Part shown: positions 1 through 36,935 of the stretch, piece after piece
Layout of the letters: each line of letters opens with the position of its first letter
How positions within the stretch are numbered: the stretch's first letter is position 1
DNA from: Polycladomyces abyssicola
GTDB lineage: Bacteria > Bacillota > Bacilli > Thermoactinomycetales > JIR-001
Length of the DNA stretch: 64,000 nucleotides
NCBI RefSeq assembly: GCF_018326425.1
Contig: NZ_AP024601.1
Span: 3,088,001-3,152,000 of the forward strand
Direction: 5' to 3'
Made by a program: the position numbers and the translations under genes
The notes under the pieces: model-generated
Database searches by the model: none
What the model was told of the DNA's origin: nothing
The model's input: the letters and a program-made list of their open reading frames with translations, nothing else

Positions 1-1593
1 TTCGCTGGTGATGTTGCCGGGAAGAGATTTATTTAACAGAAACAGTTCTTTGTCATCCCCAATCCAACGAATGAGCGCTTTCTTTAACAAGAGGAATGAG
101 ATCGGGAAACAGATGACGTATGGAAAGAGGTTCTGAAACACATCCTTTGCCAAAATGCTTAATTGATGTTGAACGGCTTCCAGGCGTTTAGTCCCGGTTG
201 TACCTTGCAATTCTTCACGGACTTCTGTCCACTTTTTCTGCATAAAGCTTTCCACTTTGCTTTTTGCTAATTTCGGGTCACGCTTGACAAGATTTTTCCA
301 CACCTCTTTTATGATGGGGGACATGAACCGACGCGCTGACTTAACAAAACCCAGTTTTGGAGGAATTTGGAGAAACTCCGGCCGTTGAATGACTTCACTG
401 AGAGCATGGCTGAATGCTTCATCAAATAAATTTTTAAATACTTTTGGCAGTATTTTTCTTCCTAGCTTGGTACGAAGCACTTCCGTGGGATCAACAAAAA
501 GACGTCCCCCTGCTTCTACAAATACTTTTTTCGGAAAAACGGTTCGTAAGACCGATAGCCCCATCGGTTTCATAGCATCTGTCATCATTTGTACATGGCC
601 GAATGAGAACATGACACGAAGTGGTTCTTGCGGAATGTCAGGCAGAGGATACAGTGACGTGATCGGCCGGCTTTGGACAACAAAAATCTTTCCATTTTCA
701 ATACAAAACTCAATATCTTGTGGGGAGCCAAAATGTTTCTCAATTCTTTTTCCCAGCTCAGCCAAACGTAAAATTTGGCTGTCCGTCAGGGCTTGTTTGG
801 TTTGTTGATCCGGTGGTAAGTCTTTTTTTACTGTACCTCCTTCAGGCAGTGAGTCAATCGCGATTTTCTTTTCCGATATATTCTTGTAAATGATTTGGCC
901 GTCCTTCACTTTGTATAGATCCGCCGATACCATCCCGGATACAATGGCTTCACCCAATCCGAAACTGGCATCGATGGAAACTACCTTGCGATTCCCATTT
1001 ACAGGATCAGCGGTAAACAAAATCCCTGAGATTTCCGGATTCACCATCCGTTGAACCACGACAGACAGGTAGACTTGACGATGATCGAATCCATTTTTCG
1101 CTCGATAGGAAATAGCACGATCTGTAAACAAAGACGCCCAACATTTTCGAATATGTTGAAGCAGTTCATCCTGCCCCTTAATGTTCAAATAGGTATCCTG
1201 CTGTCCAGCAAACGAAGCGGTAGGCAGATCCTCAGCTGTTGCACTGGAACGGACGGCATAAGCATACTCCTTCCCCACCGATTCCCAGGCATGAATGATT
1301 TCATTTCTCAAATGAAAAGGGATCTCCAATTGTTGTAAATGGATACGAATACGCTCTCCCAACTTCCGCAATTGATTGAAATCATTTGGGTCCATCGCAT
1401 TGAGTTCATCTAAAAAAGAGACCATTTCGGGACTGGTGGCGATAAAGTCTCGATACGCGTACGTCGTCACACAGAATCCACCTGGTACCGGAAAGCCTGC
1501 CTTACTCAGCTCACCCAGGTTGGCTCCCTTTCCCCCGACATAAGGGAGACTGGAACGGTCAACTTGTTCAAAAAATAACACATACGATTTCAT
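1..1593 (-). CDS. rph: Rifampicin phosphotransferase / PEP-synthase-like enzyme (partial)
   Basis: The open frame starts at ATG 1593 and leaves the window at base 1, so about 531 N-terminal residues are visible. It opens with the ATP-binding fold of PEP-utilising enzymes: SLPYVGGKGANLGEL near residue 15, PVPGGFCVTT, AVRSSATAEDLP near 115, then ILFTADPVNG and QDIEFCIENGKIFVVQSRP near 300. This is the pattern of rifamycin-inactivating phosphotransferase and of phosphoenolpyruvate synthase; the visible part cannot separate them, because the swivelling His domain lies off the edge. A good ribosome site (GAAAGGAAAGG) precedes the ATG. The predicted promoter is about 290 bases upstream and is bracketed by operator-like palindromes. 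Confidence 0.8.
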   Translation of the reverse strand, partial: MKSYVLFFEQVDRSSLPYVGGKGANLGELSKAGFPVPGGFCVTTYAYRDFIATSPEMVSFLDELNAMDPNDFNQLRKLGERIRIHLQQLEIPFHLRNEIIHAWESVGKEYAYAVRSSATAEDLPTASFAGQQDTYLNIKGQDELLQHIRKCWASLFTDRAISYRAKNGFDHRQVYLSVVVQRMVNPEISGILFTADPVNGNRKVVSIDASFGLGEAIVSGMVSADLYKVKDGQIIYKNISEKKIAIDSLPEGGTVKKDLPPDQQTKQALTDSQILRLAELGKRIEKHFGSPQDIEFCIENGKIFVVQSRPITSLYPLPDIPQEPLRVMFSFGHVQMMTDAMKPMGLSVLRTVFPKKVFVEAGGRLFVDPTEVLRTKLGRKILPKVFKNLFDEAFSHALSEVIQRPEFLQIPPKLGFVKSARRFMSPIIKEVWKNLVKRDPKLAKSKVESFMQKKWTEVREELQGTTGTKRLEAVQHQLSILAKDVFQNLFPYVICFPISFLLLKKALIRWIGDDKELFLLNKSLPGNITSE

Positions 1594-1870
1594 GGGTTGG
1601 TCACCTTTCCTTTCAATGTCCGCCTCGAAACGGATACGGGCGCGGGCAAATGTGCTGTCGCTCAAACATCCAGCTGCGTTGTCCTTGTGGTCTGTTCCTT
1701 CGCTTTGCCAGGCTCCTGAAGGTCCGCTCCCCCGGAAAAACATCGCCTAATCAATTCATTGCATCATCGCAATGAGATTTCCATCTTTTTGAAATTGCTT
1801 CTATTGCTGCGATTCGCGATGTCAGGAATCCCGATCCCAGGTAATCCATCCTGCCTTCCCAAATCTAAAA
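1594..1870 (-). other. Long untranslated leader of rph
   Basis: About 280 bases lie between the predicted start of transcription near 1883 and the rph start codon. They are GC-rich, with small stems such as CAGG-AG-CCTG, but no run of Ts after a stem, so no clear terminator. No convincing protein frame was found. The length suggests room for a structured leader, but I do not recognise a known riboswitch. Confidence 0.35.
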
Positions 1871-10572: not shown

Positions 10573-10764
10573 TCATTTCTTTTGCCCGTCCATCGAATGA
10601 TCATCCATGGAGTACTGATCCGTCATTTTCTGGTCGCCCATTTCGTCGTCCATTTTTTTGTCCTGATTGGGCATGTCGCCCATGTTATGGTCATTCATCC
10701 CTTTTTCGCTCATGTTTCCCTTGTTCATTTGTTGGTCCATGCCGTTGTCCATTTTTTTCTCCAT
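10573..10764 (-). CDS. Met/Asp-rich small ORF
   Basis: The frame encodes 63 residues, 13 of them Met and most others Asp, Gln, Asn, Lys or Gly, with repeats such as MDNGMDQQMNKGNM and MDDHSMDGQKK. There is no signal peptide and no Cys. Met with His/Asp clusters of this sort can bind copper or silver in known proteins, but that is only a compositional likeness. ATG 10764 has a weak GGAAG site upstream. The region just upstream is a broken piece of kamE, so the ORF may be part of decayed DNA. Confidence 0.4.
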   Translation of the reverse strand: MEKKMDNGMDQQMNKGNMSEKGMNDHNMGDMPNQDKKMDDEMGDQKMTDQYSMDDHSMDGQKK

Positions 10765-10787
10765 CCGCTTCCAATACGCAGTTGATA

Positions 10788-10875
10788 TGGTGATGTGGAC
10801 CCCTTTTTGCGTACCCACCTGGAAAACGAGGAGCGCATCAGCATTCTGCTAGACGCTTTGGCCACCATCTCCTCG
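10788..10875 (-). pseudogene. Broken fragment of a kamE-like gene
   Basis: These 88 bases align with 27331-27419 inside kamE on the same strand, with about nine mismatches and one missing base. The minus-strand frames still spell EEMVAKA and, after the missing base, ADALLVFQVGTQKGVHIT, against ADALLVSQVVTQKGVHIT in the intact gene. Both flanks lose the likeness at once. It is a remnant of a second lysine/ornithine aminomutase beta-subunit gene or of a partial duplication. Confidence 0.85.
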
Positions 10876-10912
10876 CGTATGTTACAATTTTTTTGAGGAT
10901 GGGGGTGAGCCC

Positions 10913-11692
10913 GTGATTTCTCTTGAAAGACAAATCCTTTATATTCTGATGAGAAAACCTGAAATAGAAGTGTCGGAACTGATCGACATCTACAACGGAC
11001 GGCGATATTCTCCGCAATCGATTCGTAACGCGTTAAGCCGTCTCAAGCGACTGGGATACATTCGACACGATCGGCGGCGGTATTCGCTTACTCCTGCGGG
11101 GACAAACGTTTTGACGTCGTTTCAATTCAAATTGGCTCAAAAGGTTCGTACCTGGAACGGAACCTGGCATTTGGTCATGTATCAAATCCCCGAATCCCAC
11201 CGAAGCTGTCGAAATACCTTGCGCCAAGAACTGATTCATCTAGGGTACGGTCAGTTGTATCACAGCGTATTTCTCTCTCCCCACGACCAAACGCAATCTG
11301 TCAGACAAATATTAGAGGAGCAGGGATTGAGCGAGTTTGTCAGCATGTTCACCGGACATTTCACTTTTGGGGAGATTCATTCGAGAGTGCATGAGATCTG
11401 GGACTTGAAGCACATCAGGGGGTTATACAGGGAATTTCTTGCCTGGGGTTCGGAAAAACGTAAACAAATATCCCGACGGCCTTCCATCCCGCCGTGGGAC
11501 GCCTTTTTCGAAATTTTGGAGCTGGGTGAGCGTCTCGGGAATATTCTCCTTCAAGACCCAATCCTTCCTACTGAATTTCAGCCGAAGGATTGGCCTGGTC
11601 CCGAAGCATGGCGTTTGTACCGTGAGTTGTATCACCATTTGATTCAACACGTTGAAAGCGAAAAGGGCATTTTACAGTTGCCTCATAAATGA
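10913..11692 (+). CDS. paaX: PaaX-family transcriptional regulator
   Basis: The product has 259 residues. An N-terminal winged helix (residues 1-70, with SPQSIRNALSRLKRLGYIRHDRRRYSLT) is followed by the PaaX central domain and ends with LPTEFQPKDWPGPEAWRLY, close to the family motif P-x-x-WPG-x-x-A. Known members repress phenylacetate degradation genes and sense phenylacetyl-CoA. No paa genes are in this window, so the target is unknown. GTG 10913 has GGGGGTGA upstream. Its stop overlaps the next ATG (ATGA), which suggests translational coupling. Confidence 0.8.
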   Translation: MISLERQILYILMRKPEIEVSELIDIYNGRRYSPQSIRNALSRLKRLGYIRHDRRRYSLTPAGTNVLTSFQFKLAQKVRTWNGTWHLVMYQIPESHRSCRNTLRQELIHLGYGQLYHSVFLSPHDQTQSVRQILEEQGLSEFVSMFTGHFTFGEIHSRVHEIWDLKHIRGLYREFLAWGSEKRKQISRRPSIPPWDAFFEILELGERLGNILLQDPILPTEFQPKDWPGPEAWRLYRELYHHLIQHVESEKGILQLPHK

Positions 11693-14027: not shown

Positions 14028-14232
14028 TCTCATTTAGGATCACGCCCTGCTTGAGGCGTAACTTTCCCCTCGCACCCATTATACTATACCAATATATGTA
14101 AATCAAACTGTTTGAGCGGGTCTTGTAATCCCGTCAAAGCGCGATTCCCCAAGACCTTTTGGCTTCCTCTTCCGCCCCAGAGTATTTCGTCATAAATGAC
14201 TCAAGTCCAAACATCCGCAGCAAAAGGTGAAA

Positions 14233-14259
14233 ACAAAAAGGCGCGGAATGAACCGCGCC
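14233..14259 (-). terminator. Terminator-like hairpin on the minus strand
   Basis: On the minus strand GGCGCGG, TTCATT, CCGCGCC is followed by TTTTTG. No gene could be assigned to it; it may end an unseen small RNA. Confidence 0.6.
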
Positions 14260-14633
14260 CAAAAAAGGTTAAAGAGCATGTGCTGAAAGGGGAACTTTCC
14301 CGAATAGTGGAGGAGCTTCTGTTTGCCTATGTCACAAATCAAGGTAATAAAACGGTATCGGTGATTAACACGGGGTTTACTTATATATATGACACAAAGG
14401 CATAGAAAGGTTGGGCCAACTATGAAAATCCGCATTCAACTACCGCTCTTGGAACTGAACGGAGTTCTGGCAAGGATTTTCCGCTTTTAAGAAGTGGCGT
14501 TTTTTATTACCGAATAGGAATTCGGTACAACGTAACCCTCGTGGATGGATGTGAGTGCCACATCAGTGAAGCGAGAGCCCACGGTAACCAACGAGAGGGA
14601 CGCTGGTGCTTTATCCAACTGGGAAGTCACCTG
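14260..14633. other. Region without a supported gene
   Basis: Apart from the hairpin at 14481-14508 I see no convincing gene. A plus frame at 14196-14405 runs through the minus-strand terminator and lacks a ribosome site. Confidence 0.35.
14481..14508 (+). terminator. Terminator-like hairpin, repeated near 38.97 kb
   Basis: CCGCTT-TTAAG-AAGTGG (with a G-U pair) is followed by CGTTTTTT. The same 28 bases with one change occur on the minus strand at 38967-38994, beyond chance. Confidence 0.6.
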
Positions 14634-19374: not shown

Positions 19375-20574
19375 TCAGGCTCTGCCTTCCCGCATGTTCG
19401 CCAAGGGTGTACAAGACATCAACAGCGCCAACAAAGACGTTCGCGGCACCACACTTTCCGGTTCGATATATTCGTCCGGCCCGTGATCCAGTCCACCTAC
19501 CGGCCCCAGCCCGTCCAAACACGGAACGCCATGCGCGGCGATCCAGTTGGCGTCGGAACCTCCGCCTGTGTCCGTGTCCCGCAAGTGAATCCCCAGGGAC
19601 GACGCACACGCCCGGGCCAATACGGCCAGCCGTTCGATCGCCGGATTGCGGACCATGGGCGGAAACCACAGCTTCATGTCCGCTTCCATCCTCACCCCGG
19701 AGATGCCAGGCCGGGAAACCACCTCCCGCACCAACGCCTCCACGCGGGAAACGGCATCGGGGTGAAACAGACGGATATCCACTTGTGCTTCGGCCCGATC
19801 CGGCACCACGTTGGATCGGGTTCCGCCCTGGATCGTACCGATGTTGATCCGAAAAGTCTCCTCTTCCGACGCCCGCTTTCGGAGCCACTGGAGTCGATCG
19901 ATCAGCTCCACTACGGCGTTGGCTCCCTTTTCCGGCTCGACACCCGCATGGGCGGATCGGCCGTGGGCGGTCAATATCAGCTGGATCACTCCCGCTCGGG
20001 CACTGACGATATTCCCATTGGCCCGTGCCGCTTCCAACACATAGACGGCATCCATCCCGGACAACAGCTCGATCATCCGATTCCGGGTGTGAAAAGAGCC
20101 AGTCTCCTCCTCGCTGTTCACCACCAAGCAGATTTCACCAAAATCCTCCCATCCCAGCCTCCGCAACACCTGAATGGCATATAGCCCCACCAACAATCCG
20201 CCCTTCATGTCACAAACTCCCGGCCCCACCAACCGATGACCCCGGCGTTGCATCGGCCTCTCTTCCGCCGTTCCGTCAGGGTAGACAGTATCGGCATGCC
20301 CCAGCAGACCGATCCGCCTCTGACCGCTTCCCCGCATCCGTCCCACCCACAATCCGGCACAGCCTTCGATTGGCAGATGGGTTACTTGAAAACCGGCGTC
20401 CGCCATCCAACCGGCGAAAATGTCTCCCGCCCGTTTCACACCTGCAGGGTTTTGCGTACCGCAATCGATTCCCACCAGTGTGCGCAATCGTTCTTCCCAA
20501 CCAGCCGTTACGTCAGCGGCGACGGAACGGATTTGATCCGGTGTAAATGGTTTCCTTGATGAGGGATGGTTCAT
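19375..20574 (-). CDS. M20-family metallohydrolase
   Basis: The product has 399 residues of the M20/carboxypeptidase G2 type. Metal-binding motifs are GHADTVYPDG, a following Asp (CDMKGG), the catalytic/ligand pair NSEEETGS, and TGGGSDANWIAAHG near the C-terminus. The inserted lid domain carries AHAGVEPEKGANA. Members hydrolyse amide bonds, often glutamyl ones. In this operon it could release glutamate from a gamma-glutamyl acid, a job done by the unrelated PuuD in Escherichia coli. AAGGAGG precedes the ATG. Confidence 0.85.
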   Translation of the reverse strand: MNHPSSRKPFTPDQIRSVAADVTAGWEERLRTLVGIDCGTQNPAGVKRAGDIFAGWMADAGFQVTHLPIEGCAGLWVGRMRGSGQRRIGLLGHADTVYPDGTAEERPMQRRGHRLVGPGVCDMKGGLLVGLYAIQVLRRLGWEDFGEICLVVNSEEETGSFHTRNRMIELLSGMDAVYVLEAARANGNIVSARAGVIQLILTAHGRSAHAGVEPEKGANAVVELIDRLQWLRKRASEEETFRINIGTIQGGTRSNVVPDRAEAQVDIRLFHPDAVSRVEALVREVVSRPGISGVRMEADMKLWFPPMVRNPAIERLAVLARACASSLGIHLRDTDTGGGSDANWIAAHGVPCLDGLGPVGGLDHGPDEYIEPESVVPRTSLLALLMSCTPLANMREGRA

Positions 20575-20662
20575 TGTTTTCCTCCTTTTCAGGCAATATC
20601 ACATGCATCATTTTCAGGTCACTCGGGAAACCATCATCCGCTGATCGAATTGCCGGCACGCC

Positions 20663-22201
20663 CTAACCGCCCAGCTCGGCTTCACGCCGGGCCAACTCCT
20701 CAGCTGACACCCGCAAGGCGGCCTGGGGGCCCGGGAAATGATCCCGATAATATGCCAGATCCATGACCAACAGAATCAACATCATCGCCACAAGCGCGAT
20801 CCCTGCATTTTGATTGGGCGGAATCACCATCACCACACTGATCAACACAATCCACATCAACGCGGCTACAGCAATCGGCTTACCCCACTTTCCCAGATTC
20901 CACGGGCCCAGATGACGCGGTGTGAACCTGCCTTTCGACTCGGCAGCCAGCCGGAGCCAAATGGGAATCCCGTAGGATACGTACAGTCCCACCACGCTGA
21001 CCCCTGTTAAAAACGCCAGGGTGGTGTAAGTGGTATTGGGGTTGGCCATTTTGATGAAATAGTCAACCAATGCCAGGATGAATGACAAGATGACCGACAA
21101 CCAGATCGCCGGAACGGGAGTCCGGTACCGTTTGCTGATCCGGGCGAACCAATCGCTGCGCGGCATCCCGTTGTCACGCGCAAAAGCGTACACCATTCGG
21201 GAGAAGGACGTGATGGAAGAAAGGCCGCAAAACCACATGGCCAACACGATCAGCCACAATATCGTTTGACCGAAGGTAGTACCCAATGCCTGGCTGATCA
21301 CATAAATGAACGGATTCTCCGCAGATACCGCCGCCTTTACATCATGGACGGACAAGGTAACGAAAGCCAACATGACCATCCCGGCCACAAAGGAAAACGC
21401 CACGGACGAGAAGATTCCCCATGGCGCCCGCACCCGAGGGTTAATCGTCTCCTCAATGGTGTGGGCTGAAGCGTCGTAGCCGGTAAACGTCCATTGCGCC
21501 TGCAGCAAACCGATCAGGAAAGCCAGCCAATACGGCTTGTCCGAAAACGTTTCTCCCAGCCGGAACAGGGTATCAATCGGTTGTAAGGGACGGTTTCCCA
21601 GAAAAGCCAGACTCACGACCAAAATCAGCACCACCGCAATGTGATACCAAGCGGAAAAATCGTTCAGCCTGGCCACGATGCGAATCCCCACATGGTTGAG
21701 AATGCCGTGGGACAACAACACCAGGGCAAACAAGATCAATGTGGACGTCTCCGTCATCTGATAGCCCAACACCGGCGAGAGCAAACCGTCGGCAAAAAGG
21801 GCAACTGAGTAGTCAATGCCCGCCACGATCCCGATCTGGCCGATCAGATTGATCCAAGCCGTATACCACCCCCAGCGTTTGCTCCCCAAAAGCGAGGCCC
21901 AATGGTACAACGCTCCCGCCGTCGGAATCGCGGAAGCCAGCTCAGCCATGGATGCAGCCACCAACATGCAAAACAAGGCCACCAACGGCCAACCGAAGCC
22001 CATCATGCCCGTCCCGCCATATGTCAATCCGTGACCGTACAATGAGACGGCACCGGTTAAAATCGAAATGATGGAAAATGAAATGGCAAAATTCGAAAAT
22101 CCGCCCATATCCCGCAACAGCTCTTGGGCATAGCCGAATCGGTGCAACAGCTTTTTGTCCTCGGACAACTGCATCTCCTTATGAGATTTGCTGGTCGTCA
22201 A
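20663..22201 (-). CDS. APC-superfamily amino acid/amine permease
   Basis: The product has 512 residues and about twelve membrane helices. GGFSNFAISFSIISILTG near residue 35 is the first-helix signature of the amino acid/choline (ACT) group of APC permeases, which includes GABA and choline carriers. TTG 22201 is supported by AAGGAGG nine bases upstream. The next in-frame ATG sits directly on a GGAG and is less likely. The start overlaps the end of the preceding small membrane gene. It probably imports the amine used by the operon. Confidence 0.85.
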   Translation of the reverse strand: MTTSKSHKEMQLSEDKKLLHRFGYAQELLRDMGGFSNFAISFSIISILTGAVSLYGHGLTYGGTGMMGFGWPLVALFCMLVAASMAELASAIPTAGALYHWASLLGSKRWGWYTAWINLIGQIGIVAGIDYSVALFADGLLSPVLGYQMTETSTLILFALVLLSHGILNHVGIRIVARLNDFSAWYHIAVVLILVVSLAFLGNRPLQPIDTLFRLGETFSDKPYWLAFLIGLLQAQWTFTGYDASAHTIEETINPRVRAPWGIFSSVAFSFVAGMVMLAFVTLSVHDVKAAVSAENPFIYVISQALGTTFGQTILWLIVLAMWFCGLSSITSFSRMVYAFARDNGMPRSDWFARISKRYRTPVPAIWLSVILSFILALVDYFIKMANPNTTYTTLAFLTGVSVVGLYVSYGIPIWLRLAAESKGRFTPRHLGPWNLGKWGKPIAVAALMWIVLISVVMVIPPNQNAGIALVAMMLILLVMDLAYYRDHFPGPQAALRVSAEELARREAELGG

Positions 22202-22343
22202 CCACGTCTCCCTCCTTCACGCTCCCAAGGAAACTCTCATGCGCTTCCTCGTCAAAAGAGCGCACATTCCGGTTGGCGATAGCACCAATCGTCACCGCCA
22301 CCACGCAAGTGGCTGCGATCAACAACAACCCCCACACCGTCAC
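22179..22343 (-). CDS. Small single-helix membrane protein before the permease
   Basis: A 54-residue frame from GTG 22343, preceded by AAGAGGTGG. It has one membrane helix (LLLIAATCVVAVTIGAIA) at the N-terminus and an acidic tail (SFDEEAHESFLG). It overlaps the permease start by 23 bases, so translation is probably coupled. Small membrane partners of this kind accompany some transporters; a role as a permease subunit is inference. It falls below common length limits for gene calling. Confidence 0.6.
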   Translation of the reverse strand: MTVWGLLLIAATCVVAVTIGAIANRNVRSFDEEAHESFLGSVKEGDVVDDQQIS

Positions 22344-22481
22344 CCGAACCACCTCTTTCTCCCGAGTACCATAGATGATGATATGGTCAGTTTATCATAA
22401 ATAAAGCCAATGTTCAAAATTAAACTATTATTGGAATAAAAAATGCGATCCCATGGAAACAGTGTCCAATGGGGTACAGGG

Positions 22482-22497
22482 TTCACCAGATGGTGAA
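22482..22497. promoter_or_regulatory. Inverted repeat in the divergent intergenic region
   Basis: TTCACC-AGAT-GGTGAA lies between the divergent permease operon and the threonine-synthase-like gene. It could be an operator; no further support. Confidence 0.35.
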
Positions 22498-22599
22498 AGC
22501 CAAACAAGTTTACACAATTTTCGACTTGATCGATATAACCAATCTTGGGATTTGTTAATATATTATTAAACCCATCCGATAAGTAGGAGTTGGATCGAG

Positions 22600-23823
22600 T
22601 TGTACAGTTATGTCTCCCATCTTTCATGCCCAAAATGTCACCGAACCTACAGAACAGAAGAAGAACATCATCTTTGCCAGTGCGGGTCTCCCCTCAGGGT
22701 GCATTATCATCTGGAAGAGTTAAAAAAGGTATACCAGCCTGTTCATTTGAAGGGGAGGGAGAACACCTTATGGAGATATCATGAGCTACTTCCTGTTCAA
22801 CATCCCGAACATGTTGTCTCCTTGGGCGAAGGAATGACTCCGTTGATTCCCATGTTCAAGATCGGGCAACAGATGGAGATTGCCCAATTGTACATGAAGG
22901 ACGAAGGATCTCTTCCAACCGGAACATTTAAAGCGCGGGGAGCGGCCGTCGGTGTATCAAAAGCGAAAGAACTGGGTGTACAGGAACTGGCCATGCCTAC
23001 CAACGGGAATGCGGGTGCTGCGTGGTCGCTCTATGCGGCAAGAGCCGGTATTCGAGCCAATATCGTGATGCCGGTCGATGCCCCGGAGGTTACGCGAAAA
23101 GAGTGTGCCGTCTCCGGCGCCCGCCTATATCTTGTCAATGGCCTTATCAGTGACGCCGGGAAAATCGTGGCACAAGGGATACAGGATTTCGACTGGTACG
23201 ATGCCTCTACACTAAAAGAACCATACCGGATCGAAGGGAAAAAAACCATGGGTCTGGAAATCGCTGAACAGATGGAGTGGAAAATACCTGATGTGATTAT
23301 ATATCCCACAGGAGGCGGGGTGGGATTGATCGGCATTTACAAAGCGCTGCAAGAATTGCGGAACCTCGGTTGGATTCAGGATCGGCTTCCCCGGTTGGTT
23401 GCCGTACAAGCAGAAGGATGTGCCCCCATTGTCAAAGCGTGGGAAGAAAAGAAAAGGGAATCCGAATACTGGCACAATGCCTCCACCGTTGCTTTTGGAA
23501 TCAACGTACCGAAAGCGTTGGGAGATTTTCTCGTACTGGAAGCGATTTACCAGACTGAGGGATGCGCGATCGCAGTGGACGATACTTCCATTTTGGAAGA
23601 ACAAAAGCGGATCGCCCAGTTGGAGGGTTCGTTTGTCTGTCCCGAAGGTGCTGCAACGTTTGTTGCCGCTCGCCGTCTGAGAGAAAACGGTTGGATTCAA
23701 GAAGGGGAAACCGTTGTCGTGTTGAATACGGGAACAGGAGTCAAATATCCCTATACCATACAGGCAAAACCGCTTATTCTCCAACCCGGTGAATCTATCG
23801 AAATGGAACTCCATAAGACATGA
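22600..23823 (+). CDS. thrC: Threonine-synthase-like PLP enzyme
   Basis: The product has 407 residues. The N-terminus has a small zinc-ribbon (CPKCH...CQCG) as in many archaeal and Bacillus-type threonine synthases. The PLP lysine is in PTGTFKARG, and TGGGVGLIG binds the phosphate. Start TTG 22600 follows TAGGAG. It is followed after 49 bases by a gamma-lyase-type enzyme and not by homoserine genes, so it may act in breakdown rather than synthesis. Annotation as ThrC is by fold and motif only. Confidence 0.75.
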   Translation: MYSYVSHLSCPKCHRTYRTEEEHHLCQCGSPLRVHYHLEELKKVYQPVHLKGRENTLWRYHELLPVQHPEHVVSLGEGMTPLIPMFKIGQQMEIAQLYMKDEGSLPTGTFKARGAAVGVSKAKELGVQELAMPTNGNAGAAWSLYAARAGIRANIVMPVDAPEVTRKECAVSGARLYLVNGLISDAGKIVAQGIQDFDWYDASTLKEPYRIEGKKTMGLEIAEQMEWKIPDVIIYPTGGGVGLIGIYKALQELRNLGWIQDRLPRLVAVQAEGCAPIVKAWEEKKRESEYWHNASTVAFGINVPKALGDFLVLEAIYQTEGCAIAVDDTSILEEQKRIAQLEGSFVCPEGAATFVAARRLRENGWIQEGETVVVLNTGTGVKYPYTIQAKPLILQPGESIEMELHKT

Positions 23824-23872
23824 CCGATTGGAAACGTTAAATCATGATTGATTCTAGAAAGGAGCAGGGATC

Positions 23873-25078
23873 ATGAACAAACAGTCTCATCATCAAGAGC
23901 TGCCTCCCGACAGACTCAAAAATGAAACCTTGGTGATACACGCTGATGATGAGGTCACCAACGACGGGACGGTAGCCCCGGCGATTTATTACTCAGCCAC
24001 GTTCCGCGCGCAAGATTCAGCCGAATTTGCAGACATGGCGGGAACTCCTCGCCACCCCCGATATTACACACGTTACGGCAACCCAGTACATGAGCGTGTC
24101 AAGAAAGTGATGGCTGAGCTTGAAGGAACAGAAACCGCACTGGTAACCGGCTCTGGGATGGGGGCGATTGCCACCACCATTCTTGCGCTGGTCAGCGCTG
24201 GCGACCATGTGATTGCCCAGACGCGGCATTATATGAGTACTGCCAAGATCATGGACGAGATGCTGCCACGATTTGGTGTCGAAGTAACCCTGGTTGAACA
24301 AGCCGACATCACCGCCTTTGAAGCAGCGATTCGGCCCAATACCAAGCTCATCATGGTGGAATCGCCGGCCAATCCGACTTTGGTGGTGACCGATTTGGCT
24401 GCCGTGGCGGAGTTGGCCCGTTCACGTGGGATCATCGTTGTGGCCGACAACACGTTCGCGACGCCGATTAATCAGCGCCCTCATGATCTGGGCATCGATG
24501 TGGTCGTTCACAGCGCAACCAAATATTTGGGTGGACACCATGATTTGACGGCTGGCGTGATCTGCACCAGCGAAGAGTTGGCCGAGCGTATTTGGCACAC
24601 GCATATCTCCATCGGCTCAGTTCTCTCACCGATGGATGCGTGGTTGCTATTGCGTGGTTTGCGTACGCTTCCGATGCGGGTCGAACGCATCAATGCCAAC
24701 GCCCTTGCATTGGCCGAGTTTCTGGAGGAGCAACCGCAGATCGAGCGGGTGTATTATCCCGGACTGGCCAGCCATCCGCAACACGAGTTGGCAAAACGCC
24801 AAATGCGTGGTTTCGGCGGAATGATCGCCTTTGAAATCAAAGGTGGTTATGACGCGACTGAGCGCTTTGTTTCTGCACTGAAATTGTCGCTTAACGCAGT
24901 CAGCTTGGGCGGGGTCGATTCACTGGTGGTTCATACTGCGGCGATGTGGGGAGGCGTGATGACCGAGGAACAAATGCGGACAGCTGGGATTCAGCCCAAT
25001 TTCGTACGTTACTCGGTCGGCCTCGAGCATATCGACGACCTGAAAGCGGATCTGCTACAAGCGCTGCAGGTGGTTTAA
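23873..25078 (+). CDS. Cys/Met metabolism PLP enzyme (methionine gamma-lyase-like)
   Basis: The product has 401 residues of the trans-sulfuration family. YYTRYGNPVHERV, the aromatic-glycine loop GSGMGAIATTILAL, DNTFATP and the PLP lysine in SATKYLGGHHD are all present. It could be a methionine gamma-lyase, cystathionine gamma-lyase or O-acetylhomoserine enzyme; the motifs do not decide. AAAGGAGCAGGG precedes the ATG. It is probably co-transcribed with the gene at 22600. Confidence 0.88.
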   Translation: MNKQSHHQELPPDRLKNETLVIHADDEVTNDGTVAPAIYYSATFRAQDSAEFADMAGTPRHPRYYTRYGNPVHERVKKVMAELEGTETALVTGSGMGAIATTILALVSAGDHVIAQTRHYMSTAKIMDEMLPRFGVEVTLVEQADITAFEAAIRPNTKLIMVESPANPTLVVTDLAAVAELARSRGIIVVADNTFATPINQRPHDLGIDVVVHSATKYLGGHHDLTAGVICTSEELAERIWHTHISIGSVLSPMDAWLLLRGLRTLPMRVERINANALALAEFLEEQPQIERVYYPGLASHPQHELAKRQMRGFGGMIAFEIKGGYDATERFVSALKLSLNAVSLGGVDSLVVHTAAMWGGVMTEEQMRTAGIQPNFVRYSVGLEHIDDLKADLLQALQVV

Positions 25079-25472
25079 TGCTGCTTGATAGATTGGAATG
25101 GATCCTGCACCGATTGGCCGGAACGTTTTTTTCCGGCCTCCAACATATTTCGACTCAGACAATCATCTGTTTGTTTTGCCGTAATCTGATCCGACCTGAT
25201 GCCCGGTTTGTTTTGAAACACGCTTCTTCTTTTTGGCTTGAGTTCGACAATGACACAGAACCAACACGGGTTCCGGAACGGAAATTTCTTCAATACGTCA
25301 ATTCCCTGACCCTTACGAACAATACGAAACCGGTTGTGTGGGTAGCTATCTCACGTCTTATTCGCTTCTAACCTACTTCTTCAAAATTGCACAAAGTACT
25401 GATTTTATATAGCCTTCCCAAACCGAATCGGCGTTTGTGTTCCTACTATGTGGTTGATGAAGTTCCCTAATC
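25079..25472. other. Spacer after the gamma-lyase gene
   Basis: It contains a perfect inverted repeat GGCCGGAA-N7-TTCCGGCC at 25116-25138 with no T-run after it. No gene is supported here. Confidence 0.5.
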
Positions 25473-25502
25473 AGACCAGCGCCAAGCTGGTCTTTTTCTT
25501 TT
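25473..25502 (+). terminator. Intrinsic terminator
   Basis: GACCAGC, GCCAA, GCTGGTC then TTTTTCTTTTT. It may end the transcript of the two PLP enzyme genes. Confidence 0.85.
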
Positions 25503-25567
25503 TCCCACTTGGGAAGTAAATGACTTGAGTCATGTGTCCAAATTTAATGATATGAGCCGCTGTCATC

Positions 25568-25798
25568 TCATTTCACCCGCCAATACTTATGTAATTCTTC
25601 AATTTCCGCTTCCTGCTTATCTAATATGCGTAAGACGCATTCATGGCTACATGCGTGAAATACTTCCCAATAAGTGCCAACCTTGTCCTCATCAGGCATT
25701 TCCAGTTTCATGCTGATCCATCCAGACGGCAAATTATCTGTCACACGTCTTTCCACGTCACCGCAGTTATCACATTGAAAAAAGATGCCTTTTGCCAT
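25568..25798 (-). CDS. Small zinc-ribbon-like protein
   Basis: The product has 76 residues starting MAKGIFFQCDNCGD; ATG 25798 has GGAGG nine bases upstream. Two Cys pairs (CDNCG and CSHEC, about 45 residues apart) suggest one zinc site. It ends in a short charged helix. Proteins of this size and pattern are common hypotheticals in Bacillales; the function is unknown. Confidence 0.65.
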   Translation of the reverse strand: MAKGIFFQCDNCGDVERRVTDNLPSGWISMKLEMPDEDKVGTYWEVFHACSHECVLRILDKQEAEIEELHKYWRVK

Positions 25799-25823
25799 TT
25801 TCTCATCCTCCGTTGTGATCACC

Positions 25824-26103
25824 TTACAAAAAATCTACCTGGACATACCCAAGAAAAACATCCAGACCATCACCATCAAGGGTGAAAACAAACGCTTGAA
25901 ATACTGGTACTTCTTCGTCAGCAAAAAAGAACGGCAACGGATCTGTGACAATCCTACGCAAACAACTGAAACCCGAAAAAATTCCCGGACCTGATCCGGC
26001 CGAAGGCATGATTGACGATTCGTCGACCGACAACGGGCAGCAAGATGGTTCGTTGGGTGGCGGTACCAATTCAAACGATCAAAGCGGGGGTTCCGACTAC
26101 TAG
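25824..26103 (+). pseudogene. 3' remnant of a secreted or wall protein gene
   Basis: Two plus frames carry protein-like text. KIYLDIPKKNIQTITIKGENKR comes first, and after a frame change GTSSSAKKNGNGSV, KPEKIPGPDPAEG and a Ser/Gly/Asn/Asp-rich tail ending SDY. Stops lie between them and there is no start or ribosome site. A strong terminator follows the last stop. This looks like the decayed end of an exported protein gene, perhaps a penicillin-binding protein; identity unproven. Confidence 0.4.
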
Positions 26104-26120
26104 TCGGCCCTCTTTTTTTT
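26093..26120 (+). terminator. Terminator of the remnant gene
   Basis: CCGAC-TACTA-GTCGG then CCCTCTTTTTTTT; it overlaps the TAG of the remnant. Confidence 0.85.
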
Positions 26121-26442
26121 GGGTCTCCAATCATGCAGGACGGACGGAGTACACCGGATCGGTGATTGATCATTCTGCCGAGTGTCATCAGGCGGTTCTC
26201 CCGCCTGATCCACCATCGGCCCGGCCCGTCCCCTAAAGACGTGTGAATTCGTTTCCAAGACGGTAAATAAGAAACAATCACATTGCCCATGATCAGACTA
26301 TCTTTATATAAGGACGGCATGACAAATTCTATACGCATGAACGTTCATTCCTTTTCACTGGTATTAGTTGTATTTATTTATTAGGATAGAAGATGTTGGA
26401 ATATGCGGCTACCCTTTCGACAAAGGTTTTCAAAACATCGGT
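26121..26442. other. Region without a supported gene
   Basis: No ribosome site with a following frame was found on either strand. Frames here look like noise between two gene remnants. Confidence 0.4.
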
Positions 26443-26663
26443 TCATCCTTGAAGTCGTTGCGGCGTGTCGACAGCGAGTATCCGCCCTTTGTGAAACATC
26501 GCCACCCGGTCACACAAACGCTCCGCTTCTTCCATGTAGTGGGTGCCAGGCCAATCGTTTTACCTTCTTTTCGAAGTTGGAGGATGAGCTCCCACAGCTC
26601 GCGGCGGGTGTTTGGATCCAATCCGGTGCTGGGTTCATCGAGAAAGACAATCTCCGGATCAAG
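26443..26663 (-). pseudogene. ABC-transporter ATPase C-terminal remnant
   Basis: The minus strand spells [19 protein letters not shown], the Walker B and D-loop of an ABC ATPase, then [18 protein letters not shown]. After a frameshift near 26560 it reads [20 protein letters not shown] and [13 protein letters not shown], with the switch His. The N-terminal half (Walker A, signature) is gone; the upstream edge abuts a terminator at 26695. Confidence 0.85.
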
Positions 26664-26694
26664 GTTAACGTACAGGGGGCCGGTGAAAAAATGA

Positions 26695-26725
26695 TGACCG
26701 CTAATGACAATTAGCGGTCATTTTT
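26695..26725. terminator. Terminator hairpin
   Basis: TGACCGCTAAT-GACA-ATTAGCGGTCA then TTTTT on the plus side; an A-run gives Ts on the minus side too. Confidence 0.85.
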
Positions 26726-26830
26726 CTTGCTATTTGAGAGAAGACTCATGCCCATCAAACTAAAAGTCGCCCCAAAATGAAAATAATGGTTTGGTATCAT
26801 CGAGGGAATTGGAAGGATTGAGCAATCTTT

Positions 26831-26853
26831 CTCCCCGGTGAGGGGAGTTTTTT
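26831..26853 (+). terminator. Terminator hairpin
   Basis: CTCCCC-GGTGA-GGGGAG-TTTTTT. Nothing obvious upstream on the plus strand is being ended, so an unseen short RNA is possible. Confidence 0.7.
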
Positions 26854-26858
26854 CCCGT

Positions 26859-27089
26859 CTATTTCGCTTCCATATAACGGTTCAACAGCAGAGCATTCAC
26901 CATCATGGTCAGCACACCCGACAAGATTTTTCCGATAAAAATCCCCAGAGATCCTATTAAAAACAATTGATCATGTACCAGCGCGCCTACAAAAATAATC
27001 CAGGCTGAACCTTTTCGATATCCCCAAACAGACAGGATAAGAAATGAAACCGGTCCCTTACCGTCAGAGACCAGTTGATGGTAATTCAA
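26859..27089 (-). CDS. Small hydrophobic protein downstream of kamE
   Basis: The frame encodes up to 76 residues with two membrane helices (SFLILSVWGYR region; LIGSLGIFIGKILSGVLTMMVNALLL) and ends NRYMEAK. It starts about 30 bases after the kamE stop on the same strand and so may be the last gene of the kam operon. The ribosome site is unclear, so the start is uncertain. The family is unknown. Confidence 0.45.
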   Translation of the reverse strand: MNYHQLVSDGKGPVSFLILSVWGYRKGSAWIIFVGALVHDQLFLIGSLGIFIGKILSGVLTMMVNALLLNRYMEAK

Positions 27090-27121
27090 TTAATTCAACT
27101 CCACTTCTGTTCCATTGCCGG

Positions 27122-27883
27122 TCAACGTCCCTCTTTCCTTTTTTCCTCCCGGCGTACAATCTCATGCACGATGAACGACGCCACGTCAGGGGCGAGCGTA
27201 CCCGGCCCGAATCCCGCGTCGTAACCCAGTTCCAGCGCCAACTCGTGATGGATGCGCGGCCCGCCGCAGATGAGGATCAGCCGGTCACGCAATCCTTCGG
27301 CTTCCACCAGTTCCACCAATTCGGTCAAGTTGGTGATGTGGACCCCTTTTTGCGTCACCACCTGGGAAACAAGGAGTGCGTCGGCATTCAGCTCGATCGC
27401 TTTGGCCACCATCTCCTCGTTGGGCACCTGGGAGCCCAGATTATACGCATCGATTTCAGGATACCGCTCCAAGCCGTACTCCCCATTATATCCCTTCATA
27501 TTCATGATCGCGTCAATGCCCACCGTGTGAGCATCTGTGCCGGTGCAGGCCCCGATCACGACCACTTTGCGCCCGATGCGCTCCCGGATGAAGCGGTTGA
27601 TCTCGTAGAAATCCATTCGCTCGGACTCTACCTTGGGAACCCGGATGTGTTGGTAATCGACAGTGTGGATGCATTTGCCGTAGACGATGAAAAAGGTGTA
27701 TCCTTCGCCCAGATCGGCCATGTGGTAGACTTGCGGTTCCTCTATCCCCATCTTGAGCACCAGTTGCCGTGCTGCCTCGCGTGCCTCTTCCCCGTAGGGA
27801 ACGGGAAGGGAAAAACTGAGTTGGACGACCCCGTCATTCAACGCGTCCCCGTAGGGCTTCACCCGTGTGAAGTCGATCGCCAT
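27122..27883 (-). CDS. kamE: Lysine 5,6-aminomutase beta subunit
   Basis: The product has 253 residues. It holds the adenosylcobalamin site GACTGTDAHTVG with the DxHxxG ligand His119. Lys130 (NMKGYNGE) is placed eleven residues on, as His133 and Lys144 are in the Clostridium enzyme, and forms the PLP link. Together with KamD it moves the terminal amino group of beta-lysine or D-lysine in lysine fermentation. Its ATG (site GGGGGGAGAGGG) lies 50 bases inside the end of kamD, so translation is coupled. A broken copy of an inner segment lies at 10788-10875. Confidence 0.93.
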   Translation of the reverse strand: MAIDFTRVKPYGDALNDGVVQLSFSLPVPYGEEAREAARQLVLKMGIEEPQVYHMADLGEGYTFFIVYGKCIHTVDYQHIRVPKVESERMDFYEINRFIRERIGRKVVVIGACTGTDAHTVGIDAIMNMKGYNGEYGLERYPEIDAYNLGSQVPNEEMVAKAIELNADALLVSQVVTQKGVHITNLTELVELVEAEGLRDRLILICGGPRIHHELALELGYDAGFGPGTLAPDVASFIVHEIVRREEKRKEGR

Positions 27884-29462
27884 CGCCCTCTCCCCCCCTG
27901 TTCGGAAGACCCAGTCGTTGTCTCAGTTCGGTTTCAAACGGATTGAAATAGTCCTCTCCCTTTTCCAACACACCTGACAGTCCCCGTCCGCCATGGAGCG
28001 GTCGTTTCACATCGGCGAACATCCCGCGTTCGATGGCGGTGAACAAACCGATCCGTCGCACTTCCTCCAGCATGGCGACGGCTTTGGCCAACACCTCCTG
28101 CGCACGCCGCTCAATCCGTCCGCCCGGTCGAAACAGGATTTCCTCTCCCAGATGCCGCGCGTTGTTGAAAATGTATTGAGCGTTTTCAATCGCCAGTTTG
28201 CGGTCGTGAATATGCGGCGTATGCATCGCTTCCGTCATCATGCCCAACAGTTGCACGCCCTGCCCTGTCAGGATGCTGACCAGGTTGAACAACGCATCCT
28301 GGATGTGTCCTTTGAAAATGTTGCCAGTCATGTGTTTGGTCGGCGGCATGTATTTGAGCGGGGCGTCGGGGAAAATCTGCCGGGCCATCTGGGCCTGGGC
28401 AATCTCCATCAACAGTCCGTCCTCGAGGTCGGGGTTCATCTCAAAAGCGTGACCCAGCCCCATCTGCTGTGGCCGAAGACCGGAGAGGAGCGCCAGTTGT
28501 TCGTTGATAAACTGGGATGCCAACACGGTGTGGGCGGACTCCACCGCATCTGCCGTGGTCAGATAGTTGTCCTCCCCGGTATTGATCATGATGCCGGCGT
28601 AGGCGTTGATCATCCGGGAGAATGACTGGTCGATCAGGGTGCGTTGCATATTGATATCGCGGAAGAGAATGCCGTACAAGGCGTCGTTCAGCATGACGTC
28701 CAGCCGCTCAAGCGCTCCCATCACCGCGATCTCCGGCATACACAGCCCGGAGCAGTAGTTACACAGACGGATGTAGCGGCCCACTTCCTCTCCGACCTCG
28801 TCCAGCGCCCGCCGCATGATACGGAAGTTTTCCTGGGTGGCATAGGTACCGCCGTAGCCCTCGCGGGTCGCACCATAAGGGACATAGTCGATCAGGCTCT
28901 GGCCGGTACTGCGGATCACCGCGATAATGTCTGCGCCCTGACGTGCTGCCGCTCTTCCTTGTACCACGTCTTCGTAGATATCGCCCGTTGCAACGATCAG
29001 ATACAGATACGGCTTGGGGCCTTCCCCCAAACGTGCGATCAATTCATCCCGTTGATTTCGGTTGGCTTCGATTTTGTCCAACCCGATGCGAGCCAGCTCC
29101 GCCCCTTTCCGCCGGATTTCCGCCCGATCCCGCAGGGGAATTCGGGTGAGATCCAGTGCACCCACTGCTACTTGTTCGGCGATCTCCTGCGGATTCAGCC
29201 CCAGCGCAAGCATCGCGTTGATTACCCATGTGGCCGCCCCGAGTTCCAGCTGCTCGCGTACCCTCAGGTGGTCCACCACCACGTTGGGCAAAGGAACTCC
29301 CTCAGCATCCACCCCGTCGATGCCCATCAACCGCAACACTGTCCGCTCCACCGCCACTGTGGTGCGCGACGCCACAAACCGGTCCACTTCAGCTGCGATG
29401 TCCGCCGACGCCTGACGTGCACGATCGATCTGATCAGGGTCCAGTCGCAATTTGACTTCCAT
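27834..29462 (-). CDS. kamD: Lysine 5,6-aminomutase alpha subunit
   Basis: The product has 542 residues from ATG 29462 (site GGAGGGGG) and matches the KamD family: MEVKLRLDPDQIDRARQAS at the start, CNYCSGLCMPEIAVMGALERLD and the C-terminal PPTKHMTGNIFKGHIQD. KamD forms the barrel that, with KamE, holds PLP and B12 coenzyme and carries out the 1,2-amino shift. The last 50 coding bases overlap kamE. It is preceded by kamC with 21 bases between. Confidence 0.93.
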   Translation of the reverse strand: MEVKLRLDPDQIDRARQASADIAAEVDRFVASRTTVAVERTVLRLMGIDGVDAEGVPLPNVVVDHLRVREQLELGAATWVINAMLALGLNPQEIAEQVAVGALDLTRIPLRDRAEIRRKGAELARIGLDKIEANRNQRDELIARLGEGPKPYLYLIVATGDIYEDVVQGRAAARQGADIIAVIRSTGQSLIDYVPYGATREGYGGTYATQENFRIMRRALDEVGEEVGRYIRLCNYCSGLCMPEIAVMGALERLDVMLNDALYGILFRDINMQRTLIDQSFSRMINAYAGIMINTGEDNYLTTADAVESAHTVLASQFINEQLALLSGLRPQQMGLGHAFEMNPDLEDGLLMEIAQAQMARQIFPDAPLKYMPPTKHMTGNIFKGHIQDALFNLVSILTGQGVQLLGMMTEAMHTPHIHDRKLAIENAQYIFNNARHLGEEILFRPGGRIERRAQEVLAKAVAMLEEVRRIGLFTAIERGMFADVKRPLHGGRGLSGVLEKGEDYFNPFETELRQRLGLPNRGGEGDGDRLHTGEALRGRVE

Positions 29463-29483
29463 GATCCCCCTCCTCACTTCCCG

Positions 29484-31100
29484 TCACCGGGTTGATTTCT
29501 TTCTTTGAGAAACCAATCTCCGCTCTGCGTCCCGCACAACCGCCTCCGGCATACCCATCAACCGGGCCACCACCGTCGCTTGACATGGAATCTCATCCCC
29601 CGCCTCCAGCGGCATCAATCGGTAGTCAATCCATTCCCGCCAATTTTCGGTTCGATGGAACGCAGATGTGTCAGGTGGACGTTTCCACCCCGCCGTCCGA
29701 TAACCGCGGATGCCCGTCACTTCCAATACCTCATGGTGATGTGTCACATGGACCGCCCAGTGCTCCCCGCATGCCAAATGGGCGGTTACTGCCGTAGACA
29801 ATGCTGCTCCCTCCGCCGGGTTGGTGCCCCTGCCCACCTCGTCCAAAAGGAGCAACCCGCCGGGGCGGCGTCTCAACAATACCCCCAAACGTGTCATCTC
29901 TGCGCCGAATGTGCTCAATCCGGCTTCCGCATCCTGGTCATCACCGATCATGCCGGCGAGGAAAGGAATGAGCGGAAGCTCGCAGATTTTTGCCGGTACG
30001 AAGAAACCGTAATGGGCCAGGGCCACCACGACACCCAGCGTTTTCATCGCCACCGTTTTCCCGCCCATGTTGGGCCCGATGATGACAGTGACACCACGCT
30101 TTACCTCCAGATCCAGCGGAGTGAATGTGTATCCATGTTCAGCCAGACGCTCCGCCAACACAGGGTGAACCGCCCCTTTTAACCGGATCGGGCCGTCGGA
30201 TCGGCGTGGTCTACTACCATTCCACCGCTCGGCCAGACGCAACCGGGCCCACTGCAGGTCAAACCGTGTAACGGATGCCAGCCAATCCAGCATGAGTGGT
30301 ATGTCCGGACGAAGTGCAGCAGCCAGCCGCGCCAAGACGGCTGCCTCCACTTCTTTGATGCGCTCATCGATTCGCTCCTGTTCCGCCATCCATTGCTGCT
30401 CTTGAAGCGTGGGCTTGGCATGGTATACGACGTCAAACGGCGTTTCCCGCACGGGAGTCAATGCATTCATCGCCGACAACTTGGTCGCTTCGGGCGACCG
30501 ACGATCCACCACCCATTCGCCTTCACGATTGCGGCAAACTCCCGTCAACTGTTCGATCTCCCTCGCCAATGCCTCCCGGTACTCGCGAATGTTTCGCTCA
30601 CATGCCTCCCGGCGACGGCGCAAATCGGCCAACTCCGGATCAAACGAGTCATCCAACCGGAATGCGGGCCCAAGTTGAGGACGGGGATCGAGTTTGTGCA
30701 AACACGCTTCGATCCGGTTGACGTCACCGGGGGAAATCCACTCATGCAATGACTGTCGGATCAAGCATTTCGCCCACCGATGCATATGCCACAACCACTG
30801 CTTGAGTTGAAACCATTCGGAGAGACCCGGCACCTCCCCACGTTCCAATCGGTAGAAGATCGGTTCTACATCAGGTAGATGCCGCAAACATGCTTCCACT
30901 GCTTCCCGCCATTCGGGCTGACGAGCCGTATTCATCAACCCCTCCAATTCCTGAAGGGACTCCTGCCATGCCGCTTCCTGTCCGGGAACAAACGGTGCCA
31001 ACGATCGCTTGGCCCGTTGACCAAACGGCGTAATCGGTTGAAACAGGGACCAGATTTCCGGCCACGACAGCGCCTGCCCGGTCTTCTCATCCATCCACAT
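29484..31100 (-). CDS. kamC: MutS-like ATPase, aminomutase reactivase subunit KamC
   Basis: The product has 538 residues. The C-terminal half is a MutS-type ATPase: Walker A GPNMGGKTVAMKTLG, Walker B LLLLDEVGRGTN and a His-rich switch VTHHHEVL. The N-terminal half is helical and lacks the mismatch-binding domain of MutS1, so a repair role is unlikely. In lysine-fermentation clusters such a protein sits beside kamD and is named as a subunit of the system that reactivates the B12 aminomutase. ATG 31100 is chosen over the upstream frame because GGGGGA precedes it. Confidence 0.8.
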   Translation of the reverse strand: MWMDEKTGQALSWPEIWSLFQPITPFGQRAKRSLAPFVPGQEAAWQESLQELEGLMNTARQPEWREAVEACLRHLPDVEPIFYRLERGEVPGLSEWFQLKQWLWHMHRWAKCLIRQSLHEWISPGDVNRIEACLHKLDPRPQLGPAFRLDDSFDPELADLRRRREACERNIREYREALAREIEQLTGVCRNREGEWVVDRRSPEATKLSAMNALTPVRETPFDVVYHAKPTLQEQQWMAEQERIDERIKEVEAAVLARLAAALRPDIPLMLDWLASVTRFDLQWARLRLAERWNGSRPRRSDGPIRLKGAVHPVLAERLAEHGYTFTPLDLEVKRGVTVIIGPNMGGKTVAMKTLGVVVALAHYGFFVPAKICELPLIPFLAGMIGDDQDAEAGLSTFGAEMTRLGVLLRRRPGGLLLLDEVGRGTNPAEGAALSTAVTAHLACGEHWAVHVTHHHEVLEVTGIRGYRTAGWKRPPDTSAFHRTENWREWIDYRLMPLEAGDEIPCQATVVARLMGMPEAVVRDAERRLVSQRKKSTR

Positions 31101-31229
31101 GACCGTCCCCCTTCTTTCCCGTGGTGCATGGTTTTTGCTCCTATTTCTCCTCAGCTCAAAGGGCGCTCGCCGGAAATCGATCACTCTTCTCTGCGATCAA
31201 TGAATGACCCCATCCCCCGGAGTACGCCC

Positions 31230-32267
31230 TCACGCTTCGCTCGGCATCGCATCCCGAACCACATCCACCACGGGAATCTCACTGATCACTTCCTGCACCC
31301 GATTTTTCATCTCGACGGGATCAAACGAATACCCCTCCGGCGAAACTGGATTCACCGCGACAGCCACCAGTCGGACCGCATGCAGGTACCGGATCTGCCC
31401 GCCCATCCGGTACCACCTTCTGACCGTCGGCATCGTGGCAAAACAACGGGTCGGATCGGACAGCAGCAACGTGAGCGGTCGTCCGGTCTCCAACATCTGC
31501 TGCAACATACGATCGGTCAGAGCACCGGGCAATGCCAAGGCCGTCCATTCCTCACTTTTCAAATGCTCCTGCCACACCTGTCGATCCACCAACAAACTGG
31601 AAAAAGGGAGCGACCGCAACTCTCCATCGCTCACCCCCATCAAAGCCCTTTCCCGCAATGCCATCTCGATCGCATTTCGCTCCAGCCCGTCTTCCACCAT
31701 GGGGAGCGTGAAGATCCTGACGGTTTCCTCTGTCTTTTTCACCACAGTTTGTAAGGTACGTCCCATGCTGGCCCCGACCACCAACACAGCCCCTTGCGTA
31801 AGGAGCGGACTGGCGGACACCTTGCGGTCATAGGCACCATCGACCAATGTGAGTGGCACCCCGTGATCCTGGAAACGGTGCAAAATTGTCCGCACTCCTT
31901 CCGCTGACGGTACCCCGGCCAGTTTGACTTGTGTCGGGCACGTGGACCGAGCAAGATAAATGTCACCGAGCAGAGAATGAACGGGAGTGGCTGCGACCAT
32001 CTCCCAATCACCGCCGCGCGGATCCAAACAGGATCCCGCCGTCGCCACCCACGTACCGCCAGGAACGCGGATGGGCGGCTTGGGCCTGCCGCTCCAAGCG
32101 TCCCGCTCTTCTCCGTCCACTCCGATGCTGAGGAGACCGACGGGGACACCACATGACCGGGATTCGGCGATCAATGCGTTCAACACCGTGGTCTTTCCGA
32201 CGTTTTTGGCCAACCCGACAATAGCGAGGGAAGCGATTCCCTCTCTCTGCACACGAGACAACAGCAT
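31230..32267 (-). CDS. kamB: P-loop protein, aminomutase reactivase subunit KamB
   Basis: The product has 345 residues. A P-loop is at residues 18-27 (GLAKNVGKTT), followed by a Ras/dethiobiotin-like pattern (LTLVDGAYDRKV). Its start is five bases after the kamA stop. Position and fold fit KamB, the partner of the MutS-like KamC in reactivating lysine 5,6-aminomutase. The exact assignment of KamB and KamC roles rests on family naming, not on evidence here. Confidence 0.75.
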   Translation of the reverse strand: MLLSRVQREGIASLAIVGLAKNVGKTTVLNALIAESRSCGVPVGLLSIGVDGEERDAWSGRPKPPIRVPGGTWVATAGSCLDPRGGDWEMVAATPVHSLLGDIYLARSTCPTQVKLAGVPSAEGVRTILHRFQDHGVPLTLVDGAYDRKVSASPLLTQGAVLVVGASMGRTLQTVVKKTEETVRIFTLPMVEDGLERNAIEMALRERALMGVSDGELRSLPFSSLLVDRQVWQEHLKSEEWTALALPGALTDRMLQQMLETGRPLTLLLSDPTRCFATMPTVRRWYRMGGQIRYLHAVRLVAVAVNPVSPEGYSFDPVEMKNRVQEVISEIPVVDVVRDAMPSEA

Positions 32268-32272
32268 GGTCG

Positions 32273-33607: not shown

Positions 33608-33656
33608 GTAGGATAACCCCTTTCTTGATTTGAAAATATGATTTCAGTCGAACGGA

Positions 33657-34724: not shown

Positions 34725-34765
34725 ATGGGTTCCTCCTTCCTTGCCGGTCCCTCACCCGTAATAGT

Positions 34766-34782
34766 TGCAATATTCGTTCCAA
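34766..34782 (-). promoter_or_regulatory. Sigma-54 promoter of the kam operon
   Basis: On the minus strand TTGGAACGAATATTGCA has the -24 (TTGG-ACG) and -12 (TTGCA) elements with the right spacing; only one core base differs from TTGGCACGN4TTGCA. It lies 42 bases before the kdd start. Confidence 0.8.
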
Positions 34783-34811
34783 CACCAACAGCCCCATACT
34801 TTCGGGTAACA

Positions 34812-34843
34812 GAAAAAAAGAGATGCCGATTTTTCGGCATCTC
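34812..34843 (-). terminator. Terminator of the regulator gene, also a likely activator site
   Basis: GAGATGCCGA-TTTT-TCGGCATCTC is a perfect ten-base stem followed on the minus strand by TTTTTTTC. Its core TGCCGAAAAATCGGCA matches two sites upstream of the regulator gene and lies about 77 bases before the sigma-54 start site, where enhancer sites usually lie. Confidence 0.8.
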
Positions 34844-34882
34844 AGGTTCTCGACAAGTTGGCGGTCTCCGTTTTCCCGTCTG

Positions 34883-36292: not shown

Positions 36293-36322
36293 GTTTAACA
36301 CCGCCTTCCAAAGGGGTGAATA

Positions 36323-36372
36323 TGCCGAAAATTCGTCATTTTCATTTTAAACTGCCGGAAATTTGGCGTCCA
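36323..36372 (-). promoter_or_regulatory. Regulator promoter with two autoregulatory sites
   Basis: TGCCGAAAATTCGTCA (36323-36338) and TGCCGGAAATTTGGCG (36353-36368) start exactly 30 bases apart, three helical turns. Between them lies a sigma-A promoter TGGACG (36367-36372)-N17-TAAAAT (36344-36349). One site covers the spacer and -35 edge, the other the start site, which fits self-repression. Confidence 0.6.
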
Positions 36373-36625
36373 TAGCGTATTTGTCTGATCTGGTTTTCCC
36401 GGGTGAGAGGCAAAACAAGTCAAACCGTTACATATAAAAATCTTACTTGGTATGTTCCTGCACATGAGCTGTTTTATTTTTTTACGACATATCCAGTGAG
36501 AGTATCTACACCTGACATTTCCTTTTTGAAAATCTATAAGAAACCGATTAAACCTTGTTGAAACGACATGGGTTGAAGTATACTGAAAATACCTATTTTC
36601 TCGATGAAAAGGAGGGTGAAGGCCA

Positions 36626-36883: not shown

Positions 36884-36935
36884 TTGGGAACATCAGGAAC
36901 AAGGTTATAGAGAAGTGAGTAAAATTATTCGCTAT

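Follow-up and report, generated by a model that had tools for sequence, protein, structure and literature searches.

An 88-base relic of kamE beside a paaX-like gene in Polycladomyces abyssicola

The locus and the identity of the 88-base piece

The DNA analyzed here (the window) is a 64,000-nt stretch of the P. abyssicola genome. Between an FMN-reductase-like gene and a gene for a PaaX-family regulator it contains the tail of a Met-rich gene, a short stretch of possible filler, and an 88-base piece resembling the inside of kamE, followed by the leader of the regulator gene. The intact kamE and kamD genes are found 16.5 kb from the piece (Table 1). The first-pass annotation of this DNA had placed the piece directly in front of paaX. 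A PaaX-family gene does start there, but it scores 119 bits, below the 264.55 required of the paaX equivalog (TIGR02277), and is better described as paaX-like. A search for PaaX loci in the named genome collection confirmed none.

Table 1. Coordinates of features discussed in the text (window positions)
Feature	Position	Strand	Basis or remark
Tail of Met/Asp-rich (lipoprotein-like) gene, start missing	10573..10765	-	Longer start with lipobox-like stretch in G002
Probably not a gene: 81-codon open frame, GTG start in relic, running in KamE frame into Met-rich tail	10573..10818	-
22 bases between relic and Met-rich tail, candidate filler	10766..10787	.	Three genomes searched, allowing up to 3 mismatches: no further match
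Relic of internal kamE codons (lysine 5,6-aminomutase beta) with a 1-base deletion	10788..10875	-	Alignment, shuffle control
Conserved leader of paaX-like gene, with extended -10 TGTTACAAT	10872..10912	+	Counterparts in G002 and G001
PaaX-family regulator gene	10913..11692	+	Pfam PaaX_M 7e-24, PaaX_C 6e-13
Intact kamE, lysine 5,6-aminomutase subunit beta	27122..27883	-	NF052385, 423.6 bits, cut-off 280
Segment of intact kamE matching relic	27331..27419	-	Alignment
Intact kamD, lysine 5,6-aminomutase subunit alpha	27834..29477	-	NF052384

The piece and its counterpart within kamE are identical in 79 of 89 aligned columns, with nine substitutions and one 1-base deletion, and both have minus-strand orientation. 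The alignment scores 113 bits (E 4e-25 to 4e-28 in searches within the window), while the best of 500 composition-shuffled 88-mers searched against the window reached 31.9 bits. Similarity stops at both ends, with extension scores of 1 on the left and 0 on the right (mean 0.8 for 500 random pairs). A longer leftward match, from 10771, was obtained with a lenient alignment and was rejected, its extension score of 1 not being significant. Just two matches to the 88 bases are found in the P. abyssicola genome (3,197,230 bases, one contig), the piece itself and kamE, and a dispersed repeat or repeat family was rejected on this count. Flanking repeats of the kind that would mark an insertion were looked for around the piece, and none were seen. 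The first-pass description of it as a same-strand match to kamE at close to nine in ten bases, with one deleted base and abrupt ends, about 16 kb from the operon, was thus borne out, and neither of the outcomes it had named as counting against it, an alignment at chance level or a repeat at many loci, was found.

The piece corresponds to 88 of the 762 bases of kamE, or about 30 of its 253 codons, and encodes no domain. In the KamE frame it is broken by a stop at the position of 27394 (GAG to TAG), beside the 1-base deletion. Judged by these comparisons, the piece is genuinely derived from kamE, unique in the genome, and decayed: an ordinary gene relic, presumably without function.

The same interval in two congeners

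Two congeners, here G001 and G002, were compared at the orthologous place. Both have the paaX-like gene and kamE, and in both the piece is absent. In G002 about 480 bases lie between the counterparts of the Met-rich tail (to 10765) and of the paaX-like leader (from 10872), and they include a truncated histidine-kinase piece (HATPase_c positions 35–81 of 111, 1.4e-11). G001 has at this spot an MFS transporter gene broken into three frames. The broken genes found there differ among all three genus genomes, which makes the interval in front of the paaX-like gene a site of gene turnover, with the kamE piece as one relic among several. On the other side of the regulator gene, neither of the congener stretches compared matches the window between about 11.70 and about 14.8 kb. 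The HATPase_c piece of G002 (L016:3384-3720, G002:C13) shares a GLAIA-like stretch with a lipoprotein-like start of the Met-rich gene, and the two are fused in frame there; in a search of three genomes, its best match besides itself had an E of 0.06, so that no parent was found for it there.

No intact parent of the Met-rich tail was found among 46 genomes, where only P. abyssicola itself and G002 have matches. The 22 bases between tail and relic were considered as a second captured piece and rejected, no source being found at the mismatch level given in Table 1. The arrangement could be read as an interval that repeatedly captures gene pieces, in frame and on the minus strand, in front of the same Met-rich tail, with short-lived chimeric genes as the product. 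The captured pieces would be kamE here, giving the 81-codon frame, and the histidine-kinase ATPase piece in G002. This is considered very unlikely.

It had also been suggested that the piece donated promoter sequence to the gene downstream, which appears at most half true. A promoter scan gives a site TGGCCA-18-TACAAT with TG, matching at nine of 12 positions, whose first hexamer lies in the relic (10859–10864). This hexamer, with 4 of 6 matches to the -35 consensus and a spacer of 18, is all that the relic could contribute. The extended -10 (TG-T-TACAAT, 10880–10888) lies outside it, is native to the leader, and has counterparts in both congeners. G001 has a -35-like hexamer of its own, at a spacing of 17, while the scan found none on that strand in G002; and about 0.7 such sites would be expected by chance in the stretch scanned. 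That the relic was co-opted as the -35 sequence of the paaX-like gene is accordingly held to be improbable, though it may possibly have donated a weak -35-like hexamer.

Parentage and decay of the relic

The first-pass annotation had proposed a lost second aminomutase gene, perhaps an ornithine aminomutase, or a partial duplication. The part concerning ornithine aminomutase did not survive comparison. Intact kamE scores 143.8 bits against the OraE profile (cut-off 800) versus 423.6 bits for Lys_5_6_beta, and kamE and kamD are each far under the OraE cut-off. The relic has 9–12 differences from the kamE genes of the three genus genomes and 15–33 from 14 outgroup kamE genes, the first 14 listed of 80 kamE loci returned. 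Likelihood placement of the relic inside the outgroup clade (G011, G007, G014) was also rejected. Derivation from an ornithine aminomutase gene, or from another distant aminomutase gene, therefore has next to no probability; for oraE this comes from the closeness to genus kamE and the profile scores. The nearest named kamE genes are from members of the Thermoactinomycetaceae, Marinithermofilum among them. Some details bear on how these comparisons are to be read. The first difference table was made without a row for G007, which had been in the wrong orientation (57 differences). The tree used seven of the nine genes attempted, leaving out G009 and G026, and its AU test was run with 2000 resamplings, under the number that the program recommends. 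G009 and G014 are apparently the same contigs as L076 and L082, and are not independent between comparisons.

What did stand is a partial duplication, or a remnant of an extra kamE-type gene. The first-pass annotation had looked to an intact second gene in a relative for support, and this was not forthcoming: among the 61 genomes searched, 38 have exactly one Lys_5_6_beta gene above the cut-off and none has a second kamE at that level, and at the locus itself the two congeners compared lack even the piece. Further matches under the cut-off look, from the range matched, like other B12-binding proteins. Nor does other kam-gene DNA recur in the P. abyssicola genome besides the 88 bases, or lie beside the relic, in a search at E<=1e-5 with window positions 20001–40000 (40 of 85 candidates scored). 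With no second kamE in 61 genomes, a full lost gene is unproven.

The differences between the relic and its own genome's kamE fall into two groups. Four of the ten (at 27371, 27377, 27380, and 27383), each at codon position 3, match the kamE of other congeners, which identifies the source as a working kamE. Of the relic substitutions with no counterpart in congener kamE, four of five are at codon positions 1 or 2. Three (27394, 27366, and 27357) are at sites invariant in all 17 kamE genes compared and one (27390) is at a nearly invariant site; that at 27356 is at codon position 3, and the same base is found in Paludifilum. The changes at conserved sites, together with the lost base, indicate later decay of the piece, free of coding constraint. 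At 27380, the kamE genes of P. abyssicola and G002 have one base in common, and the other base is found in the relic, in G001, and in 14 of 14 outgroups. The source allele would therefore predate the split between P. abyssicola and G002, or have come from another lineage, although a reverse transition is a possible alternative.

Taken together, the preferred reading, to which a probability of roughly 85% is given, is that the piece is a non-functional relic of a partial or decayed extra copy of a genus-type kamE, lying where genes turn over in front of the paaX-like gene. Such a copy, whole or partial, would have landed on the minus strand between the FMN-reductase-like and paaX-like genes. 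Deletions would then have stripped it down to 88 bases, so that what was left abuts the native paaX-like leader at one end and, at the other, the tail of a Met-rich lipoprotein-like gene that was itself decaying. Partial duplication in an ancestor, ectopic or tandem, could have brought it there, or it could be a fragment of a related species' DNA taken in by end joining. Signals of its age are contradictory. The base at 27380 suggests a copy older than the split from G002, while the longer lipoprotein start at the join in G002 suggests a later event in the P. abyssicola lineage, or else differential deletion from a larger ancestral cluster. The promoter-like site that takes in bases of the relic also speaks against a reading without function.

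The two routes of arrival that were weighed are alternatives within this reading rather than to it, and their likelihoods are shares of it. In one, a kamE fragment from another species of the genus, for example one near G001, was taken up and then integrated by end joining or illegitimate recombination, and there was never a second kamE gene at this place. The relic is slightly closer to the kamE of G001 (nine differences) than to its own (ten), its base at 27383 is found in G001 alone among the congeners, it does not have the base common to P. abyssicola and G002 at 27380, and its best placement in the tree is beside G001. Ku genes are present in all three genus genomes, P. abyssicola included, which makes end joining available, and by inspection the right-hand join could use 3–4 bases of microhomology (CTCG). 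Placements on the P. abyssicola, G001, and G002 branches or on the stem are nevertheless statistically equal, and only about two sites favor a foreign source, both of them transitions. This route is accordingly put forward tentatively, at somewhat under an even chance. In the other route, the 16.5 kb between 10876 and 27419 would have been duplicated in tandem and one of the copies then almost entirely deleted. This route predicts both the orientation and the adjacency observed, with kamE position 27419 joined to 10876. However, any insertion has one chance in two of having this orientation, and the relic allele differs from the present kamE at four synonymous sites; it is the less likely of the two, with perhaps one chance in five.

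The piece can be compared with known systems. Like other bacterial gene relics and partial-gene pseudogenes it is short, frame-broken, unconstrained, and absent from congeners, but it is very short, at 88 bases, with its parent gene still intact 16.5 kb off. As in partial gene duplication followed by deletion, it is a truncated second copy that shares chromosome and orientation with the intact gene; its synonymous sites, however, differ from those of the present allele, so it may be old or foreign. Unlike kamE itself (NF052385), the source of its 88 bases, it has a deletion and a stop. As a short gene fossil it still lets its source allele be read, and it flags an interval next to a regulator gene in which genes turn over. 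It alters nothing known of lysine degradation in P. abyssicola, and a second aminomutase is not indicated.

Other repeats and broken genes

Several other repeated or broken sequences were noticed in passing. Window positions 14232–14611 are a mosaic of short matches to several places in the P. abyssicola genome (79% to 660 kb). It includes a dispersed repeat, 55 bases long, for which at least nine more matches were found, and a 47-base piece that reads AYVTNQG-TVSVI, like a beta-propeller repeat, and is also found in a short frame at 597 kb (with weak Pfam support). The gene at window positions 601–1746 has a broken PPDK_N paralogue at genome position 1151920 (L039:1267-1653), in which the start runs straight into an internal stretch. 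Positions 1617–1801, which partly overlap the gene at 601–1746, are matched at 76% by additional DNA in G002 (L016:6811-6985, on the reverse strand), and 1661–1742 match the P. abyssicola genome at 241 kb; 1617–1801 is probably a dispersed intergenic repeat. Nearer to kamE, about 640 bases at 25816–26451 are 84% identical to the genome at 2998 kb, and 26225–26446 are 92% identical to it at 321 kb. Short repeats, both inverted and dispersed, cluster at positions 37344–38455 and occur many times over in the genome.
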